Assembly (NCBI GenBank): GCA_949132985.1
Contig: CASCGD010000005.1
Coordinates: 1 to 64,000 of the forward strand
DNA: 64,000 nt
From: an uncultured Lachnospiraceae bacterium
GTDB taxonomy: Bacteria; Bacillota; Clostridia; Lachnospirales; Lachnospiraceae
Direction: 5' to 3'
The notes below the pieces were generated by a model, which did no database searches, had not been told where the DNA came from, and saw only the letters and a program-made list of their open reading frames with translations. The translations under genes and the position numbers were made by a program. Positions 3,310-61,430 of this stretch are shown piece after piece; the stretch's first letter is position 1, and each line of letters begins with the position of its first letter.

Positions 3310-3339
3310 TTCTTATTTCCTCCTTCTATGCACTTTTAA

Positions 3340-3420
3340 GGTTTCGCCCGTTCGCTCTGCTCTCGGGCATGTCGTCGGTAGGCATTCAAAAAAATGCTTC
3401 GCATTTTGCCTGCCTCCTAC
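3340..3420. repeat. Nested palindromic repeat A, copy 2
   Basis: GCCCG..CGGGCATGTCGTCGGTAGGCATTCAAAAAAATGCTTCGCATTTTGCCTGCCTCCTA; same consensus as copies near 1615, 5400, 56565 and 56655. Confidence 0.8.
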
Positions 3421-51015: not shown

Positions 51016-52887
51016 TCACATCACGTCCGGCAACTGCTCTCCCGCCGCCGCAACAGGATTTTGAAGCTCCGCCAGAAATCTTGACGCGGCGGCATCTTTA
51101 TTGTAGAGCGTTTTACTCGCGGAGATAAACAGGCGTTCCTTCGCGCGGGTCATCCCCACATAAAAAAGCCTGCGTTCCTCCTCGATATCCGCGTCCAGCA
51201 CCGCCTTTTTGTAGGGCAGCAGCCCTTCCAGAAGCTGCGGAAGAAACACCGTGTCAAATTCCAGTCCCTTTGCGCCGTGCAGCGTCAGAATCTGTACGCC
51301 CTCTCCTGATGTCCCGCGTTTTCGTTGCTCTTCTTTCATGCGCTGACGGTACTCTTTTACATGCGCCTGCCACTGCTCCAACGTAGAAAAACCCACCGCC
51401 GACTGTTGAAGCTCATCCAGCACCTCCATCAGCTCCTGCTCCTTCTGCCCGTGAGTGCGGGCATAGTCCGTCACATACGCCTCATAGCCAATACCCTTTC
51501 GCACATAATTCATCGCCGCGAAGGGTCCCATGTGCGACATCACCTGCAAATCCTCCGCAAGCTGGGCAATCCGGCGCGCGATCCATGGCTGTTCTTCATA
51601 GGCAGCTTCCCAGCAGTCCAGATCCACCCGCGGCTCATCCAGCACGTCACGGCTCAAATATCGCAGAGGGCGGTTCATGATCTGCAAAATATCACTGCGG
51701 TTTCGCCCGCCCGCTCCAAGCCGCAGATAACTGAGCATATCCTTTGCAATCCAGTGGTCGTACACAAGCGGCACAGATTCCCTCGCAAAAAACGGAATGC
51801 CCCCGGCCAGAAGCTGCTCCGTCAGATAGCCGGACTGCCGGTTGGTGCGGTAGAGCACCGCCACCTCCCGAAATGCCAGACCTTCCCCGTGAAGCTCACG
51901 GATCTTTTTTATGATCGCCTGATTTTCCTGAAAAACGGACGGATATTCCCGCACCGAGACGCATCCCTCCTGCCGGCGCGCCGCCGTTATACGCTTGTTA
52001 AACCGATTTTTATTGTGGGCAATCAGCGCAAGGGATGCCCTGACAATCCGGCTTCCGCACCGGTAATTTTCCTCCAGACACAATTGGTTTGCACTTGCAT
52101 AATCCCTGGTAAAATGTCTCATCAGTTCCGGCCGTGCACCGCGGAACTGGTAGATGGACTGGTCATCGTCGCCCACAAAAAACAGCTCGTTCTGCGGCGC
52201 TGCCAAAAGGCGCAAAATCTCGTACTGCAGCGCATTCATATCCTGCACCTCATCCACCAATATGTACCGAAACTTCTCCTGCCAGACCTGCAGGTGATCG
52301 GCGCGCTGCAAAAGCAGCTCCCGGGTCATCGTGAGCATATCGTCAAAATCGATGAGTCCATTTGCGCGCAGCTTCCCGTCATAGGCCGTATAAATATCGC
52401 GAAACTGCGAGGTTCCACAGCACTTTGCATAATAGTGCTCCAGCGCCAGCTGGTTGTTTTTGACCGCACTGATTTCCTCCAGAAGCAATCCCGTCAGCTC
52501 CTGGCGTTCATCCTCTGGCAGGCGGTAGCTGCCCAGTATTTCCCGCATAAATGCATATTTCATCTCCTGCGTAATGATCTGGTCGCTTCGATAACGCCAG
52601 GCATGCTTTAAAATGGAAAAAAAGACTGCATGAAAGGTGCCGAACTGCACCGGAAGGCGCTTCCCTTCCATCATGGACTGGAAGCGCAGACGCATTTCCT
52701 GAGCCGCTGCCCGCGTGAATGTAATGACTAAAATATGCTCCGGCGGAATGTGACGCGTCTCCACAAGAAATCGAATACGGGCGGTAATCACTGCCGTCTT
52801 CCCGGAACCAGGCCCTGCCAATACAAGGGTTGCCCCATCAGACGCCGAAATCGCCCGCCGCTGAGATTCACTAAAATGATATAACAT
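51016..52887 (-). CDS. UvrD/PcrA-like ATP-dependent helicase
   Basis: LVLAGPGSGKTAVITARI; LVDEVQDMNALQYEIL; LTLHGAKGLEFDTVFLPQLLEGLLP. Confidence 0.94.
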   Translation of the reverse strand: MLYHFSESQRRAISASDGATLVLAGPGSGKTAVITARIRFLVETRHIPPEHILVITFTRAAAQEMRLRFQSMMEGKRLPVQFGTFHAVFFSILKHAWRYRSDQIITQEMKYAFMREILGSYRLPEDERQELTGLLLEEISAVKNNQLALEHYYAKCCGTSQFRDIYTAYDGKLRANGLIDFDDMLTMTRELLLQRADHLQVWQEKFRYILVDEVQDMNALQYEILRLLAAPQNELFFVGDDDQSIYQFRGARPELMRHFTRDYASANQLCLEENYRCGSRIVRASLALIAHNKNRFNKRITAARRQEGCVSVREYPSVFQENQAIIKKIRELHGEGLAFREVAVLYRTNRQSGYLTEQLLAGGIPFFARESVPLVYDHWIAKDMLSYLRLGAGGRNRSDILQIMNRPLRYLSRDVLDEPRVDLDCWEAAYEEQPWIARRIAQLAEDLQVMSHMGPFAAMNYVRKGIGYEAYVTDYARTHGQKEQELMEVLDELQQSAVGFSTLEQWQAHVKEYRQRMKEEQRKRGTSGEGVQILTLHGAKGLEFDTVFLPQLLEGLLPYKKAVLDADIEEERRLFYVGMTRAKERLFISASKTLYNKDAAASRFLAELQNPVAAAGEQLPDVM

Positions 52888-53207: not shown

Positions 53208-54389
53208 CTACAATTCCCCGATGGACAGCCGGTCCACCGACTTGATAATGCCGCGTATTTCCTCTTCATACTCCGGCTGCATCGCCATCAGCTCGTCGAC
53301 TTTGGAGCGCTGCTCCTCCACAATGTTCGCATTGTACTGGATACGTGCCCGCAGCTTCTGTCTGCGCACCAGCAGATTATGCTTCACCTCAGACATCTCG
53401 CCGGCGCTTATGAGGGCATGAGGCTGCTCCGTCCACACCCTCGCATCATAGAGTCTGTACTTCTCCAGCAGGCTGATTAGCTTGTGGTTGTAATAGTCCA
53501 GATCGTCGTTGGTCCGCAGCAGACGTTCTTTCTCGCGCGCTGCTTCCAGATATTCCTCCCACTGATACTCCAGATCCCGCGCATTCTTGACGTGGTATTT
53601 TTCACATGCATAATCCACTGCGTTCGTAATGTTCACATACTTGATCTTTGTCTTGTTGAGCAGGGAAATGGCATGGTTGGCATTCATCTCCGCGCGCCGG
53701 ATATTCGTCACGGCATTCTGATAGCGCACAAAAATAAACAGCCCGCCCGCAGCCGCCAACGCAGTCACAATCATCCAGCCCCAGGTCACATCGACGGAAA
53801 ATCCGGCCTGCAATACCGTCAGCAGAATCATCAGCAGAAAGAACACCGAAAAGAGAATGCTCGAGGCCATACGCAGCACATGCTTTTCGTGCATCATCTC
53901 GCTGCGCAAAAGCGTCCACTGCATCTTCTCACCCTCCAGATAGGACATATCCCGCTTAATCGTTGACTGATAGGCCTCATTTGTCTGCATCCGGCGAATC
54001 GCATCGGGAATCTCCTGGTCCTTTTGCTCAAACATCACATACTGTGTATCCGATATCTTTTTTGATGTATTCAGATAGGAATCGCGCGACTGATTCAGCT
54101 TTTGGATGTATTCCGCCACCTCCCGGATCGGCTCTTGCTCCTCTTCAGGCAGAGCGCTGATCGTCTCGATATCCTCCAGATATCTGGTAACAATATCGTA
54201 CTCTTTTTTTCCCTCTCCGACCTCTTTGGCCGCCTCGATGATCTGCTCGCAATAGTCCAGCACATAGTGGCCAATCCTTCGCTGATTCGGCTCCTGTTGC
54301 TCCGGAAAAAGCTCCTTTGTCATCTCCTGAAAATCCTGCTCCTGATTTTTTTCTTTTCTACGAGAAAAAATTCGTCTCAAAAATCCCAT
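53208..54389 (-). CDS. Hypothetical coiled-coil membrane protein
   Basis: Long coiled coils flanking two TM segments (SILFSVFFLLMILLTVLQAGF, WGWMIVTALAAAGGLFIFV). Confidence 0.7.
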   Translation of the reverse strand: MGFLRRIFSRRKEKNQEQDFQEMTKELFPEQQEPNQRRIGHYVLDYCEQIIEAAKEVGEGKKEYDIVTRYLEDIETISALPEEEQEPIREVAEYIQKLNQSRDSYLNTSKKISDTQYVMFEQKDQEIPDAIRRMQTNEAYQSTIKRDMSYLEGEKMQWTLLRSEMMHEKHVLRMASSILFSVFFLLMILLTVLQAGFSVDVTWGWMIVTALAAAGGLFIFVRYQNAVTNIRRAEMNANHAISLLNKTKIKYVNITNAVDYACEKYHVKNARDLEYQWEEYLEAAREKERLLRTNDDLDYYNHKLISLLEKYRLYDARVWTEQPHALISAGEMSEVKHNLLVRRQKLRARIQYNANIVEEQRSKVDELMAMQPEYEEEIRGIIKSVDRLSIGEL

Positions 54390-54450
54390 CTGCCATTACT
54401 CCTCTATGCGTTCCCCGGCCTGGCCGGCCACGTACGCCAATCAATCTCTT

Positions 54451-55230
54451 TCAGTCCTCGCACTGACTCCGATAGTTCTCAATCCACTTCAGCAGCTGGC
54501 CGCCCGGAAGGGATGATTGCTCCGAAGCCGCCATCGTCTGTGACAAAAGCTGCTCCATGCGCACCCGCTCCTGTGTAATCTGCCCTGCGTTTACCGCAAA
54601 CCGCGTCACCAGCCGCTCCAAAAGATCCTCATCCCCGGAAAGACATGCCGCCGCCACCGCTTCCTGCAAAGTTTCAATTCGGTGATTCAGCATGTACCCT
54701 CTGGAGAAGCAGTCCACCGCTTCCCCAAAATCCTGCAGCCTGGCATAGGCGCATCCGAGATTACTCCAGATATCCCCCGTTACATGTCCCTGTTTTTCAA
54801 TTACAGCGGGATCGTTTAAGAGCCTTCGGTAAGCATAAATTGCCTGTACATACTTTTCCTGATGCATATAGGAATCCGCGTGCAGCTTCTTTGCCTCCAG
54901 GCCGGTCATGTGGTCATATTTCTGGAGCTGAACGTTCAGCCACTGCAGCTCCACCGTCGTCAGGTAACCGTTTGCCGCCTCGATGGGCAAAAAGAAATCC
55001 AAAAGCTTTCCTTTCAGTTTCCCGCGCAGAAGCACCGCCAGCTCTTCCATACACAGCTCCCGCCCCACCCAGGCTACAAACTCCGTCTTCATAAAATCAT
55101 CTCTGTCAACAAAACGGGCTGACTGCACATAGTACATCAGCTCCTCCAGGGAGTAGATATTCACTTTTCCGCTCTCAATGTAAAAGGGGGTTTTCGCCCT
55201 TGGGCTTTTACATAAAATCAACTGTCCCAT
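54451..55230 (-). CDS. Hypothetical protein with TPR-like repeats
   Basis: YVQAIYAYRRLLNDPAVIEKQGHVTGDIWSNLGCAYARLQDFGEAVDCFSRGYMLN. Confidence 0.75.
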   Translation of the reverse strand: MGQLILCKSPRAKTPFYIESGKVNIYSLEELMYYVQSARFVDRDDFMKTEFVAWVGRELCMEELAVLLRGKLKGKLLDFFLPIEAANGYLTTVELQWLNVQLQKYDHMTGLEAKKLHADSYMHQEKYVQAIYAYRRLLNDPAVIEKQGHVTGDIWSNLGCAYARLQDFGEAVDCFSRGYMLNHRIETLQEAVAAACLSGDEDLLERLVTRFAVNAGQITQERVRMEQLLSQTMAASEQSSLPGGQLLKWIENYRSQCED

Positions 55231-55275
55231 AGACTTCCTTTTCTAAAAATAGATCGATTGATTCCTGTCACGTAT

Positions 55276-56514
55276 CTACAAAAGAAGCTCATACTCCCAC
55301 TTTTTCCCGGAACCGGGCACCAATTCCCCCAGACCCACGTCTGTCAGCGTCAGTTTCACCTCGTGATCCGAGCAGGGTTTCACATCGATGGCGATACGGC
55401 TCGTGCGCTTTTCCCGCTTCGGAAGCGCGGCCAGCTCCACCGCCTCAATACGCGCTTCCCGGCTGTCCGGCCGCTGAATCCAAAAATCAATCGTCGTCAG
55501 GTCATCCAGAATCACCTCGCACCCCTTATGGGGTTCAAACCACGGCACGCCGGCAGTAACCAGTGTATAAAAGGAGAGATTCCCCCGCTCATACACCTTC
55601 AGGCTCACATTACTCTTCATCTCATGCTCGCCGATGTAGACATACTCCGGCGTTTTTTTGCTGTCATAGCACTTTGCCGCATAGCAGGCTCCCTTGGAAA
55701 ACAGATTTTTCCCGAGGAATACCCTTCGTCCCTGGCACAAAAGCTTCAGTGACTCCTTCATCCAGCCGCTCTCAAAACCATCCCCCACCAGATAGATCAT
55801 AGTGACGATCTGTTTGCCGAGGGCCTGCGGAATGATTTGCGCAAAAAGCTCATCCGCCTGCTGCGCCTCAAAACCGTAGCGCTCCTCCCGTATGGAAAGC
55901 AGCTGTGGACGCGAGCGCTTCCCGCTCTCCAGACACCAAAACTGCAGCTTCCTTGCATGGTACTCAAACAGGCCCATATCGTGAAACGCCCCATTTTTAG
56001 CCTGCGCGCTCCCATAATAAAAGAAACTTTGCTTGTAATCGATGAAATGCACCTGCGCCCCGGTAAGCTGCATCGCGCCGGCAACCTCCCGCAGCATTTC
56101 GATCACTCCCGCATCCAGCGTGCGCGTCGTGATAACCAGCTGAGAAAGAGAGATCTTCGGTCCAAGACGCCCCGCCAGCGTCACCATCTTTTTCAAAAAC
56201 ATGGCAAGCAAATCCGACAGCGCGTAAAGCTTTGTGCCCATCTGCACCTGCTCGCCCCGGCATGCCCGCTCAAACAGGCGCTCCTCACAGTGTCCCAGCC
56301 CTGCTTTCGCAATGCGGCGCGCCTCTTCGCCGTAAGCCCACCCTCCCTCATCGCGCTTTAAACAGACTGCCATCGGAATGGAAAAAATCTCACTGCCGGT
56401 AAAAGGGCTTACCGTCTCCGGCTCACCGTTCTCGTAGGAAAAGCTGACCATCGCCACATCGCCGTCCAGATCAATGCCCACATATATCTTTTTCCCCGAA
56501 TCTCCTGTCTCCAT
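55276..56514 (-). CDS. Hsp70/actin-fold ATPase-like protein (DUF5716 family by recall)
   Basis: KIYVGIDLDGDVAMVSFSYENGEPETVSPFTGSEIFSIPMAVCLKRDEGGWAYGEEARRIA (phosphate-1-like loop); YLVGDGFESGWMKESLKLLCQGRRVFLGKNLFSKGACYAA. Start trimmed out of repeat A. Confidence 0.75.
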   Translation of the reverse strand: METGDSGKKIYVGIDLDGDVAMVSFSYENGEPETVSPFTGSEIFSIPMAVCLKRDEGGWAYGEEARRIAKAGLGHCEERLFERACRGEQVQMGTKLYALSDLLAMFLKKMVTLAGRLGPKISLSQLVITTRTLDAGVIEMLREVAGAMQLTGAQVHFIDYKQSFFYYGSAQAKNGAFHDMGLFEYHARKLQFWCLESGKRSRPQLLSIREERYGFEAQQADELFAQIIPQALGKQIVTMIYLVGDGFESGWMKESLKLLCQGRRVFLGKNLFSKGACYAAKCYDSKKTPEYVYIGEHEMKSNVSLKVYERGNLSFYTLVTAGVPWFEPHKGCEVILDDLTTIDFWIQRPDSREARIEAVELAALPKREKRTSRIAIDVKPCSDHEVKLTLTDVGLGELVPGSGKKWEYELLL

Positions 56515-56519
56515 ACCCA

Positions 56520-56613
56520 ATCTCCTATCCATTAGGAAGCGCCCGTTCGCATCACTCTCGGGCATTTCGTCGCAAGGCATTCCCAAAAATGCTGCGCATT
56601 TTGCCTTGCTCCT
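56520..56613. repeat. Nested palindromic repeat A, copy 4
   Basis: GCGCCCGTTCGCATCACTCTCGGGCATTTCGTCGCAAGGCATTCCCAAAAATGCTGCGCATTTTGCCTTGCTCCTA. Confidence 0.85.
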
Positions 56614-56619
56614 ATCATA

Positions 56620-56700
56620 AGGCAGCGCCCGTTCGCATCGCTCTCGGGCATTTCGTCGCAAGACATTCCCAAAAATGCTGCGCATTTTGCCTTGCTCCTA
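56620..56700. repeat. Nested palindromic repeat A, copy 5 (tandem with copy 4)
   Basis: GCGCCCGTTCGCATCGCTCTCGGGCATTTCGTCGCAAGACATTCCCAAAAATGCTGCGCATTTTGCCTTGCTCCTA. Confidence 0.85.
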
Positions 56701-59700
56701 CAACACGCGGAACAGCCGCGCGGTCAGGCCGTCGTACGCCTGATAACGCCCCATTTGCATCTGAAGCTGCCTCGCATCACCGGAACGCGCACAGTCAATC
56801 ATCTCATTCAAACATGTGTAGCGATTGCGCATCTTCTGCGAGCCGGCCGACAGCTTGACCAGATGGCTTTCCGTGATGGTTTCCATGCGCTCGCTTTTCT
56901 CGGAAATATAATACTCCAACTGCTCATCCCCTGCAAGACGCATACTCCACAGATAAATACCCGCAAGCGCCGGCTTCAGCTGTACCCGCTTAAAATCTCC
57001 GCCCGGCGCGCTGATGCGGTAATTCAGCCAAACCTCCGATCCCTGCACGCTACTGCGGTACTCCACCACACACAGATCATAGAGGTGGTAACGCACCTGC
57101 TGCTTTCCTGGAAGGTTCAAAAAGCAGGAAAAATACTGCCCTTTTCCGATGTACTCATTGAGCATATCATCCACAAAGCAGTTCTGTTCCACCGTGAGCA
57201 CATCAAGATTTGTATAATGCTCGAAGAGTGCAAACCGCAGATACTGGTTTGCTCTGCGGTTCCCCAGGGTGGCCTGCTCCAGATATGGATAAAGCTCCCG
57301 CTCCACTTCAAGGCGGTTGACAAAGATCTCATAGGAAAAATACGTCAGATACGCCATGCGCACCTGCTCCCTGCCCTGATGCGCACAGTAGTCCGCAAAC
57401 ACCTTCTGCACATCCGGTGTGAATGCCGAAGAAAATACCATCTGAATGAGCAGCCGCTCCTCCAGCTCCACCGCGGGCACCTGCTGTTTGATCGCTTCCC
57501 TCCAGATTTCCACCATGCGCACCGCAGGTCCCTGATAATAGCTGCAAAGATATTCCAGTATCGGACGCTTTACGCTTTCCATCAAAAAGCACTGCCCGCA
57601 AAAATAGAGCAAATGCTCGTCCTCCTGCATTTGCTGCGCCTGAAGCTGTGCCAGCACAACCTGCTGTAAGCACTCACCGGAGAGCTTGCCCACACCGTAT
57701 TGAACGAGGAAGGTCCATGCCTCCTGGTACATCTGAAGCTGAACCAGAGATTCCAGATAGCGGTCTTTCGCCCTCTGCGGCAGCCGTCCGAAATCAATCT
57801 TTAAAATATAGTCCCTGGTATCCCCCGTAAATCCCTCGCCCCGGCAATACTCCAGAAAACCCGGGCTGATTTTGCTCTTAAAGTCATCCGAAACCGCCTC
57901 CGAGCGCACCAAAGTCCGCGCGAAGCCTGCCATACGGACATCCATGTGCAAAAGACGCGTCTTTCCATTCATATGGTGCAGGACATAGGGCAGCTCTTCG
58001 GGCGCAAGCTCCAGACATTTCCGAATATATTTGCCGGGATTCATCAGCCGCTCCATCTGCGTCTCGGAGGAAAGTGCGAAACGTCTCCCGTGGGCGTCCT
58101 GCAAGAGAATCACGTAATCCCCCGCGTAGACCGGAAAATACGCCTGATGCTCCGTCAGAGGATAGACGCGGGGCTGTTTTAAATTTTCCTGCTGGATGAT
58201 CACATGGGTCACCGTCTCCTCCAGACAGGTAAATTTGTTCACGTATAAAATGCGTGAAAGGGCATGCGCCAGCTCCTCGTTGAGCGGCATACGCTCCAGA
58301 ACGTGCGCATAGACCACCGCCAGATTATCGTCCATGTGCCCCTCCAGCATCTGAGCCTGTGCGAAGTCCTGCATAATCTGGCGGTAGCGCTCATACACCG
58401 CGGGCTGCGCCTCACGATTCGAGATAATGTTGACGTAGAGCACCGCCTTCTGGCGCCAGGTCAGCCGGTTGCTGTACTGAAAATAAAGCTGCACGGACTT
58501 CGGAAGCTGACGAACCTCCCGCGCGTCAAGGGAGGCCATGAACGCCTCGTAGAGTCCCGTAATCTGCAGATCATGCTCAATGGCCAGCTCATAGTAAGCG
58601 TGGGCATCCTTTCCGAAGCGTTCTCCCTTGATGCGGTAGGCGCAAAGCCCTGCCAGCATCTCCGTCTCAGGATACGTATTGTAGCAAGTCACCAAAATTT
58701 CGTCCAGCATCCAGGTATAGCTTTTCACACTGATGGCCCGGCGGACGATCTGCTCCGTCAGATCCCTTGTGAGCCGACCATGCCTGCAGATCCATTTTAA
58801 AACATGCAGCTCAAACTTCCCAATGGAGAGCAAAAGATATGGTTCCTTCTCATAAATGTCCGCTGCCCTCGCATAGAGAAACGGACTGGCCATGCCCTGC
58901 ATGAACCATTGCTCCATGAGCTTTAGCTGCCGGGGAGACACTTCCGGCGAACGATCTGCAATCTGCATAATAAGAAAGCGCATCCACACATCCTCATGAT
59001 TTGCGCGGTAAATCTCCCGGAGCTTCTGATAAAGCTTGTCCAGAAGCTTCGGCTCACTTTCCGTAAGGGAGCACAGATACAGAAAAAACGCCCATTCCCT
59101 GCTGTCATCGGCACTGCGGCTGTGGCGGTACTCATCCAGAATCCACGCCGCCTCCTGCTTCTGCCGGTTCTGCAGCCAGGCATAGGCACACCAGAGCGCA
59201 TCCATATCGGAATTTTCATTCTGCTCCCGCCTTGCACGCAGAAGCTCGGTCGTCTGCTTCGCCCATTCGCCGAGCACCAGCTCCCCCGCCAGAAACTTCT
59301 CATAGCTGCGCAGAAGCTTTAAGTCGTCCATGGATTTTCTTCGCCGGTCATCCCGCTCCAAATCCAGAACCGTGCTCAGGGATGCCGTGATCTCATAGGT
59401 CTCCTGCTGCAGATGGTTGGAAAAGGTAATGCTGGCAAAATTTTTCCCCGCATGCATACGCTCCGGGTAAAGCTGATAGCGGAACTGAAAATGATCACCG
59501 TTAAAATCATCACCCGTAATCTGGTCTTTCTCCAGTGAAACAAAGCCTGCGTCGCAGGAAACGTCCATCTCTACATAACCCCAATCACTCAGGGAAATCG
59601 TGAGGCTCTCCTCCACCGGCTCCGAGAGCTGTAAATATTCCGCATGAGAAGCCGACAGCGAAAAGAATACCCGGGGTTTGCGCTTGCATCCAACCAGAAA

Positions 59701-60234
59701 TTCCTCGATATTTGCCCGCAGCACCGGTTTCGTGGACATCAGCTTATAAAAGAGCTGCTCGCCCGACGTTTTGAGAAGCTTTTTAAACGCAGGCGCGCCA
59801 AATACATGAATGCTCTCCCGCCAGCTCACGCGGTAGAGTCTGATAAAATCCTCCAGCTTTGTGATACGTCCGATGGAGGTCTCCGCATAAAGCCGTTTGA
59901 CGGCCACCGACCAGGACAGATTATACTCGCCTCCGCTGCTGATAACCAGAAAATCCCCGGTGGCCACGTCACCCTCCTGCATGTAATCCCCATGGAATTC
60001 ATAGTGAATCTGCGGATTTTCACCCTGAAACTGGGGGTTTTTAATCTCCATGCGCAAATCTGTGGAGTAGACAACGCCCCTGACCGAAAGATTGTTCATA
60101 CTTTCGATTGTAAAACTTCCGCTGCTCTTGATTCCCTCCACCTGCTCAATCATCACCTGTTCCGGTGTAAAGGAAATCAGCGGTATGGCCGTATGCACTT
60201 TTCCCTCTGCCAGTTCCTCGATTCTTCTGTACAC
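56698..60234 (-). CDS. Giant (1178 aa) helical-repeat protein (DUF5717 family by recall)
   Basis: Single long ORF; N-terminal beta-rich segments, then extended TPR/solenoid-like helical repeats. Confidence 0.75.
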   Translation of the reverse strand: MYRRIEELAEGKVHTAIPLISFTPEQVMIEQVEGIKSSGSFTIESMNNLSVRGVVYSTDLRMEIKNPQFQGENPQIHYEFHGDYMQEGDVATGDFLVISSGGEYNLSWSVAVKRLYAETSIGRITKLEDFIRLYRVSWRESIHVFGAPAFKKLLKTSGEQLFYKLMSTKPVLRANIEEFLVGCKRKPRVFFSLSASHAEYLQLSEPVEESLTISLSDWGYVEMDVSCDAGFVSLEKDQITGDDFNGDHFQFRYQLYPERMHAGKNFASITFSNHLQQETYEITASLSTVLDLERDDRRRKSMDDLKLLRSYEKFLAGELVLGEWAKQTTELLRARREQNENSDMDALWCAYAWLQNRQKQEAAWILDEYRHSRSADDSREWAFFLYLCSLTESEPKLLDKLYQKLREIYRANHEDVWMRFLIMQIADRSPEVSPRQLKLMEQWFMQGMASPFLYARAADIYEKEPYLLLSIGKFELHVLKWICRHGRLTRDLTEQIVRRAISVKSYTWMLDEILVTCYNTYPETEMLAGLCAYRIKGERFGKDAHAYYELAIEHDLQITGLYEAFMASLDAREVRQLPKSVQLYFQYSNRLTWRQKAVLYVNIISNREAQPAVYERYRQIMQDFAQAQMLEGHMDDNLAVVYAHVLERMPLNEELAHALSRILYVNKFTCLEETVTHVIIQQENLKQPRVYPLTEHQAYFPVYAGDYVILLQDAHGRRFALSSETQMERLMNPGKYIRKCLELAPEELPYVLHHMNGKTRLLHMDVRMAGFARTLVRSEAVSDDFKSKISPGFLEYCRGEGFTGDTRDYILKIDFGRLPQRAKDRYLESLVQLQMYQEAWTFLVQYGVGKLSGECLQQVVLAQLQAQQMQEDEHLLYFCGQCFLMESVKRPILEYLCSYYQGPAVRMVEIWREAIKQQVPAVELEERLLIQMVFSSAFTPDVQKVFADYCAHQGREQVRMAYLTYFSYEIFVNRLEVERELYPYLEQATLGNRRANQYLRFALFEHYTNLDVLTVEQNCFVDDMLNEYIGKGQYFSCFLNLPGKQQVRYHLYDLCVVEYRSSVQGSEVWLNYRISAPGGDFKRVQLKPALAGIYLWSMRLAGDEQLEYYISEKSERMETITESHLVKLSAGSQKMRNRYTCLNEMIDCARSGDARQLQMQMGRYQAYDGLTARLFRVL

Positions 60235-60341
60235 GCTAATACCTGCTTTTATTAGTTGAATTTATTCGTATTTATGGTATACTAACGATTAACATTATAC
60301 TATATTTAGTGTGCGATAGCAAATGTTTTGTAGGAGGCACC

Positions 60342-61430
60342 ATGATAAAACAAAAAGAACATTTTCACGGAAGTGATTTGGAAAAAATTGAGAAACTATA
60401 CGGCATACGTCGGGAGGATATCACCAGCTTTTCCGCAAATGTCAATCCGCTTGGCATTTCACCGAAGCTGCGGGAGACGCTCTCCGCCCATGTGGATGCC
60501 ATCACCACCTACCCTGATCGCGAGTATTCCTCCCTGCGAAGCTGCATCGGCGGCTACGTAGGTGCGGACATGAAAAATATTCTCGTGGGCAACGGCTCCA
60601 CGGAGCTTATCTCCCTCATCATCCAGATCGAGCATCCGAAAAAGGCTATGATTGTCGGACCGACCTACTCCGAATACGAGCGCGAGGTAAAGTTGGGCGG
60701 CGGTACGACCATCTATTACCCCCTGCGGGAAACCGACGGTTTTCAAATGCGGACAGAAGATTTCATCAGAAAATTGAACGAATCCATCGATATGCTCGTT
60801 ATCTGCAACCCGAATAATCCCACGAGTACCTGCATCACAAACCGGCAGATGCGCCACATCCTCGATGCCTGCAAGGAACACGGCATCTTTGTCATGGTGG
60901 ACGAAACTTACGTGGAATTTTCCTCAGACATTGAAAAGGTGACTGCGGTACCCCTCACAAAATACTATGATAATCTGATTATTCTGCGGGGCACAAGCAA
61001 ATTTTTTGCCGCCCCGGGACTGCGGCTCGGCTATGCCATCACCGGCAACCGCGACCTGCTGAAACAGCTGGTCACCCGCCAGAATCCCTGGAGCATCAGC
61101 TCCCTTGCCGCCATTGCAGGAGAGATCATGTTCACCGACCAGGACTATATCGAACAGACGCGCACCCTCATCTGTGCCGAGCGGACACGCATCTACGATA
61201 TGCTCCACGCCCATCCCGATTATAAAGTGTACGAGCCGTCGGCAAACTTCCTGCTCGTAAAACTTATGCGGGAAGACCAGACCAGCGAGGCGCTTTTTGA
61301 TAAAGCCATCAGACGACGTATGATGATCCGCGATTGCTCTACCTTCCCGTTCCTCGACGACCGCTACATTCGGTTCTGCATTATGAGTCCGGAGATGAAC
61401 GACCGGCTGATGGCGTGCATTCTGGAATGA
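60342..61430 (+). CDS. PLP-dependent class I/II aminotransferase (HisC/CobD-like)
   Basis: FSANVNPLGISPKLRETL; VGNGSTELI; ICNPNNPTSTCI; FVMVDETYVEF; ILRGTSKFFAAPGLRLGYA. Confidence 0.9.
   Translation: MIKQKEHFHGSDLEKIEKLYGIRREDITSFSANVNPLGISPKLRETLSAHVDAITTYPDREYSSLRSCIGGYVGADMKNILVGNGSTELISLIIQIEHPKKAMIVGPTYSEYEREVKLGGGTTIYYPLRETDGFQMRTEDFIRKLNESIDMLVICNPNNPTSTCITNRQMRHILDACKEHGIFVMVDETYVEFSSDIEKVTAVPLTKYYDNLIILRGTSKFFAAPGLRLGYAITGNRDLLKQLVTRQNPWSISSLAAIAGEIMFTDQDYIEQTRTLICAERTRIYDMLHAHPDYKVYEPSANFLLVKLMREDQTSEALFDKAIRRRMMIRDCSTFPFLDDRYIRFCIMSPEMNDRLMACILE

Follow-up and report, generated by a model that had tools for sequence, protein, structure and literature searches.

What kind of system is built by four consecutive genes of an uncultured Lachnospiraceae bacterium (GCA_949132985.1), one of which recalls the chaperone Hsp70 and another of which encodes a giant protein of helical repeats? 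The initial annotation of this locus proposed a chaperone or scaffold machine at the envelope, in which an Hsp70-fold ATPase works on the giant solenoid or together with it, and considered it a candidate for an undescribed system. We will examine these proposals in the window, meaning the whole stretch of 64,000 nucleotides that was analysed (contig CASCGD010000005.1, positions 1 to 64,000), and in related loci of other genomes. The four open reading frames (ORFs) do lie one after the other at 53208-60234, all on the minus strand, and the names DUF5716 and DUF5717, which the annotation had already given, agree with the Pfam matches (DUF5717_N, DUF5717 and DUF5716_C). The cassette and its immediate surroundings consist of the following features.

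60309 to 61430, plus strand: divergent PLP-dependent aminotransferase-like gene, a conserved neighbour that serves as synteny anchor.
56698 to 60234, minus strand: DUF5717 protein, 1178 aa, GTG start.
56525 to 56697, no strand assigned: an 86-bp repeat dispersed through the genome, in two tandem copies that separate the DUF5717 and DUF5716 genes.
55276 to 56514, minus strand: DUF5716 protein, 412 aa plus stop, ATG at 56514.
54451 to 55230, minus strand: TPR protein, 259 aa, with a TPR_2 match.
53208 to 54389, minus strand: two-TM hairpin coiled-coil membrane protein, 393 aa, no Pfam family.

From the DUF5717 gene to the TM gene, the intergenic gaps measure 183 bp (with the repeat block inside), 45 bp and 61 bp. 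The motif AGGAGA stands just 5' of the DUF5716 ATG at 56514, and the alternative ORF of 469 aa differs from the annotated one only by extra translated repeat. The genome contains no fewer than 63 copies of this 86-bp repeat, often in tandem and with 78-100% identity, and the repeat is also found in the window at 3337-3411, while the DUF5717-DUF5716 gap is 8 bp in a relative (locus L010). The repeat is not part of the system and is unrelated to the cassette; the aminotransferase-like gene is also outside the system. On the other side of the cassette, 12 bp past the TM gene, lies a gene for a CsoR/FrmR/RcnR-type metal-sensitive repressor (PF02583, 52914-53195), and a gene of the same family follows the cassette in several close relatives (a cluster of 8 loci). 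Beyond it lies a UvrD/PcrA-like helicase of 623 aa (51016-52887), which scores well below the PcrA/UvrD equivalog cut-offs and is repeatedly encountered downstream of the cassette in related loci (a cluster of 18).

The proposal of a four-gene unit had been staked on the co-occurrence of its members. A scan of genome contigs gave 80 loci, mostly from Lachnospiraceae or its genera, which makes 81 with the window, 7 of them being cut by contig ends. All four genes are found in identical order and strand in 71 of the 74 uncut loci, so their grouping is not due to chance, and the median gaps across loci are 15, 12 and 4 bp. In the other three uncut loci, the TM gene alone is missing. Loci L065, L075 and L084, which include those of Shuttleworthella satelles and Eisenbergiella tayi, carry the DUF5717, DUF5716 and TPR genes without the TM gene; thus, the membrane anchor is not always present. 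DUF5716 was found in 244 and DUF5717 in 245 of 250 Lachnospiraceae genomes (249 genera), usually in one copy, and the cassette thus belongs to the single-copy core of this family. Both proteins were found in the same four genomes of a phylum sample, all Lachnospiraceae, and in 0 of its 345 others, and a class sample limited DUF5717 to Lachnospiraceae plus one sub-threshold match, these negative distribution results resting on samples of a few hundred genomes. The cassette proteins evolve fast: their median identity is 33-43%, against 69% for the neighbouring aminotransferase in the same genome pairs.

What, then, is DUF5716? It matches DUF5716_C (PF18980) with an E-value of 8e-95 and 317.6 bits, for a gathering cut-off of 34.7, and its AlphaFold2 model (pLDDT 90.3) consists of a nucleotide domain and an Hsp70 substrate-binding beta domain (SBD-beta). 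In Foldseek, this model matches DnaK (E 2e-18, probability 1.00), and also BiP and Hsc70, over both domains; the TM-score to the query is only about 0.5, which is expected given an absent subdomain and a variable domain orientation. A PDB sequence profile search gave weak matches (E 0.006) to DnaK at the two ends of the protein. A sequence bridge from DUF5716 to Hsp70 is provided by proteins of sister families, termed here Hsp70-B, since 15 of 16 match PF18980 (DUF5716_C) and 13 of 16 match PF00012 (HSP70, best E 3e-22). DUF5716 is an Hsp70-family protein by fold and homology. It shares with DnaK and canonical Hsp70 (PF00012) the nucleotide-domain fold, the 8-strand SBD-beta and collinear phosphate-1, adenosine and SBD-beta regions; the Hsp70 layout read from the sequence was right on this point, and the beta-rich tail is the substrate-binding domain to which it had been likened. 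An actin-like cytoskeletal system, with an MreB/FtsA-type polymer and a membrane anchor, would have the superfamily fold in common with DUF5716 and could account for the fast evolution of the partners at the membrane. However, the best 50 Foldseek matches listed are all Hsp70-family chains or complexes containing one, the Hsp70 beta substrate domain is present, and the nucleotide site that polymer dynamics would need is missing. An MreB/FtsA-like filament was rejected on the Foldseek ranking and on the presence of SBD-beta, and we hold this reading to be extremely improbable.

The word ATPase, for its part, finds no support in the sequence. Compared with DnaK, DUF5716 is devoid of the helical lid (SBD-alpha), the protein stopping at the SBD-beta strands in the AlphaFold2 model, and also of the catalytic Lys, Glu and Thr, of subdomain IIB and of the canonical hydrophobic interdomain linker, and its phosphate-2 motif is degenerate. 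The residues were checked in an alignment that includes the DnaK of the window's genome, 15 DUF5716 proteins from Lachnospiraceae and three further Hsp70 paralogues of the sister families, Hsp70-A (n=18), Hsp70-C (n=13) and Hsp70-D (n=13). In DUF5716, K70, E171 and D201 are each found in 0/15 and the phosphate-2 T199 in 1/15; Hsp70-A, -C and -D retain all four in 18/18, 13/13 and 13/13 cases, respectively. The interval from the phosphate-2 to the adenosine motif, which holds subdomain IIB, has a median of 44 residues in Lachnospiraceae DUF5716, versus 127 in a DnaK, and counts 43-58 residues in the alignment, where DnaK has 126; it spans 117-136 residues in Hsp70-B and 117-166 across the sister-family paralogues. 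Subdomain IIB, which provides adenine and GrpE contacts, is therefore deleted in Lachnospiraceae DUF5716. Because the catalytic Lys, the Glu and the phosphate-2 Thr/Asp are lost in nearly all members examined and IIB is deleted, DUF5716 is, as judged from its sequence, far likelier to be a pseudo-Hsp70 than an ATPase. In its substrate groove, positions 401, 426, 438 and 472 are hydrophobic in 15/15 proteins and the fifth, 436, is a gap; peptide binding by this beta domain is uncertain.

These losses bear on the reading of the cassette as an active, ATP-cycling envelope chaperone, in which DUF5716 would hydrolyse ATP and remodel the DUF5717 solenoid or the clients bound to it. The Hsp70 fold of DUF5716 would suit such a role, as would the active-looking Hsp70s and the GrpE-domain protein of the sister-family operon described below, but the catalytic residues and IIB are lost throughout the DUF5716 family, the cassette comprises neither GrpE nor any other Hsp70, and the HSP70-profile matches in the genome of the window are only DnaK and two short MreB-like proteins. 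We consider this quite unlikely. An Hsp70 relative of little activity is not without precedent: Ssz1, in the yeast RAC, is an atypical Hsp70 without SBD-alpha and with little or no hydrolysis, which is locked in a stable complex (PMC8476630). DUF5716 is also a lidless atypical Hsp70, and Ssz1 is the closest parallel documented, as a likeness in kind for which no orthology is claimed; and by analogy it may bind nucleotide without hydrolysing it. Ssz1 retains ATP binding and acts at the ribosome with a J-domain partner, whereas the DUF5716 cassette has a membrane protein and a giant TPR scaffold instead. One could then see the cassette as a co-chaperone module for the general DnaK, in which the pseudo-Hsp70 and the TPR/solenoid proteins would supply DnaK with membrane clients, in the way that RAC (Ssz1-Zuo1) serves Ssb. 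Indeed, the lidless and barely hydrolysing Ssz1 has a canonical Hsp70 at its side (PMC8476630), Foldseek lists RAC among the matches of DUF5716, and DnaK is present in the same genome. Yet neither the window proteins nor the scanned sister-family proteins showed a J-domain, and the cassette is without linkage to dnaK, which makes this reading unlikely.

The DUF5717 protein matches PF18984 (DUF5717_N, E 7e-233, 775.6 bits) and PF18983 (DUF5717, E 2.5e-74, 250.6 bits), for a cut-off of 25 bits. The beta-rich N-terminus and the long helical repeats first noticed in this giant protein are both visible in its AlphaFold2 model (pLDDT 85.4, pTM 0.59), which displays two N-terminal Ig/ASH (PapD-like) beta sandwiches at residues ~20-285, a TPR-type helical superhelix at 290-1048 interrupted by a beta insert at 665-729, and a C-terminal beta domain at 1054-1127. 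With Foldseek, the beta part retrieves ciliary central-pair, CEP192 SPD-2 and HYDIN chains and the helical part retrieves Ski complex subunits, Naa15 and OGT, all of them as fold resemblances only; a profile search of the PDB brought up nothing significant for DUF5717. TPR profiles also match the C part of a sister-family DUF5717. One Lachnospiraceae member (genome G545, locus L145) has a DUF5717 without the N-terminal beta domains and a cassette without the TM gene. The third protein is TPR-like, as had been thought (TPR_2, E 6.7e-9), and its conserved N-terminal domain is common, by alignment, to the longer TPR proteins (~387 aa) of the sister families, which the Lachnospiraceae TPR profile matches at E 1e-20 to 1e-32. 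Neither this protein nor DUF5717 has a predicted TM segment in nearly all members. The fourth protein finds no family among those of Pfam. Its TM segments occupy residues 175-193 and 203-221, with a loop of ~9 residues, and two TM segments are seen by hydropathy in 62 of 73 homologues, in keeping with the two-TM coiled-coil protein first described. The count of K+R per homologue is high in the N-flank (4.4) and C-flank (3.0) and low in the loop (0.7), so both coiled-coil halves should be cytoplasmic, as predicted from this charge distribution. Sister-family homologues of this protein were recovered with E-values of 7e-58, 2e-41 and 2e-34. Another membrane coiled-coil protein, of ~400-480 aa and with 2-4 predicted TM segments, is encoded upstream of DUF5717-N in sister-family loci L103, L104, L105, L108, L110, L115 and L116; the idea that it belongs to one family with the window TM protein was discarded after profile comparison (hhalign probability 2%).

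The explanation of the cassette comes from outside the window, in an operon of the sister families. A DUF5717 search over the whole order, followed by a gene-by-gene reading of the loci, retrieved this protein in other families, mostly as two adjoining genes; a single-ORF DUF5717 also exists in some sister-family genomes (L113, L114), and the fusion is thus not unique to Lachnospiraceae. Up to nine components are found there.

DUF5717-N, the first part of DUF5717.
DUF5717-C, its second part.
Hsp70-A, ~558 aa, intact-looking and lidless.
GrpE-domain coiled-coil protein, 279-644 aa, GrpE recognised in 14 of 15.
Hsp70-B, the DUF5716 orthologue, already catalytically dead.
Hsp70-C, ~545 aa, intact-looking and lidless.
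Hsp70-D, ~692 aa, intact-looking and lidless, with a C-terminal VWA domain in 13 of 13.
TPR protein, ~387 aa.
TM protein, found in loci L119, L124 and L131.

All nine are found in genome G598 (L098 plus L119), where Hsp70-D and the TPR protein each consist of two ORFs, which we attribute to a frameshift or an assembly error. A divergent aminotransferase-like gene lies next to DUF5717 in 32 Lachnospiraceae loci (same cluster), and a similar divergent gene, recognised by its N-terminal sequence, stands beside DUF5717 in several sister-family loci; this common neighbour supports the view that the Lachnospiraceae and sister-family loci are one locus. In a maximum-likelihood tree, Hsp70-B and DUF5716 are set apart from Hsp70-A, -C, -D and DnaK (UFBoot 100), and DUF5716 is nested in Hsp70-B, as sister to the G598 protein (UFBoot 100), the deep B branches having poor values of 23-33. 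As DUF5716 is nested in the catalytically dead Hsp70-B, catalysis was lost before Lachnospiraceae. The Lachnospiraceae line itself is marked by the disappearance of the GrpE protein, of the Hsp70s A, C and D and of IIB, and no GrpE or further Hsp70 is found inside the Lachnospiraceae cassette. The GrpE contact surface of DnaK includes subdomain IIB, so the joint loss of IIB and of the GrpE protein is coherent, the causal reading being our own. The window cassette thus appears to be a stripped-down remnant of a multi-Hsp70 operon.

A relocation of the intact Hsp70s to other places in Lachnospiraceae genomes was considered and rejected within what was covered: Hsp70-D with its VWA domain was not found in 60 genomes of the family, and DnaK is the only intact Hsp70 of the window's genome. 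In a class sample of 196 genomes, searched for spread beyond the order, Hsp70-D-VWA gave DnaK-like matches only, ending near residue 500, and the sister-family DUF5717 N profile gave a single marginal match (E 1e-3). Hsp70-D (L120, L122, L124 and others) is the most conserved of the aligned operon proteins, with a mean column identity of 77%, which suggests that it is central to the active machine. CRISPR-like Cas clusters are apparently located downstream of the operon in L126, L127 and L128, as judged by eye from ORF sequences.

Are such operons already known? In the GTPase-centred GAP1-N2 systems (theme 2) of Kaur et al. 2020, a protein of FNIII repeats with a fused TPR or DnaJ part occurs together with HSP70 and GrpE (PMC7159879), and this theme shares HSP70, GrpE, a beta-sandwich-TPR protein, VWA and TM components with the sister-family operon (PMC7159879). 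The latter, however, has four Hsp70 paralogues where that theme has one or two, as core and not accessory members, and the Lachnospiraceae cassette is without intact Hsp70 or GrpE. The similar parts list (PMC7159879) would speak for a biological-conflict (defence) system of this type, but no GTPase was noticed in the loci, the flanking genes of some of them having been scanned without a GAP1-N2 profile. Furthermore, a single-copy core gene set in ~98% of the family genomes, with a stable order, is unlike the patchy defence systems, and the four window proteins are without PADLOC match; for three sister-family proteins, PADLOC gave weak matches only. We rejected a defence system on this PADLOC result and on the core distribution, and regard it as very unlikely. 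In the literature on multi-Hsp70/GrpE/VWA systems, the study of Kaur et al. 2020 was the only closely relevant result, and searches of the open-licence literature with Pfam accessions and names found no description of the cassette. To call the system undescribed is fair, no published description of it having been found in that literature, although two of the proteins have Pfam names: they are members of DUF5716 (PF18980) and DUF5717 (PF18984/PF18983), for which Pfam gives no function. The link of these families to Hsp70 and to a multi-Hsp70 operon is added here.

Taken together, we think it probable that the cassette encodes a scaffold assembly at the membrane, with a dedicated multi-Hsp70 chaperone machine as its ancestor. 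From the comparison of the loci, the Lachnospiraceae line has shed IIB, the GrpE protein and the three intact Hsp70s of an operon of up to nine genes, and its DUF5717 has become one gene. DUF5716 would then be a constitutive, nucleotide-independent subunit, to be compared with Ssz1 in RAC, and its beta domain may bind a stretch of peptide in a partner or client. DUF5717 would provide the scaffold, through its ASH-like domains and TPR superhelix, the TPR protein would be an adaptor, and the TM hairpin with its two cytoplasmic coiled coils would tether the assembly to the inner membrane face. That the four proteins form one assembly is our inference, gene adjacency being the sole link among them; given their strict gene linkage, it is plausible that DUF5716 acts on or with the giant DUF5717 solenoid. 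Our guess is that it serves to organise the envelope or to handle membrane proteins. More tentatively, and as a possibility that we would not bet on, the order may carry a so far undescribed quadruple-Hsp70 machine, in which three intact-looking lidless Hsp70s (including the VWA fusion) and one pseudo-Hsp70 are joined by an ASH-TPR scaffold, a membrane anchor and a GrpE-domain protein of their own, and which Lachnospiraceae, among the largest families of the order, would have turned into an ATP-independent, membrane-tethered core scaffold for an envelope or membrane-protein process.

Lachnospiraceae count among the most abundant bacteria of the human gut, and this single-copy cassette is kept, despite its fast evolution, by nearly all that were sampled. 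A clade-defining core feature without known role is a good target for study. The sister-family operon would be, to our knowledge, the richest dedicated Hsp70 operon described. The two mark the ends of a natural series, with an intact-looking multi-Hsp70 machine at one and a pseudo-Hsp70 scaffold at the other, in which the role of an Hsp70 without ATP would be testable in bacteria.
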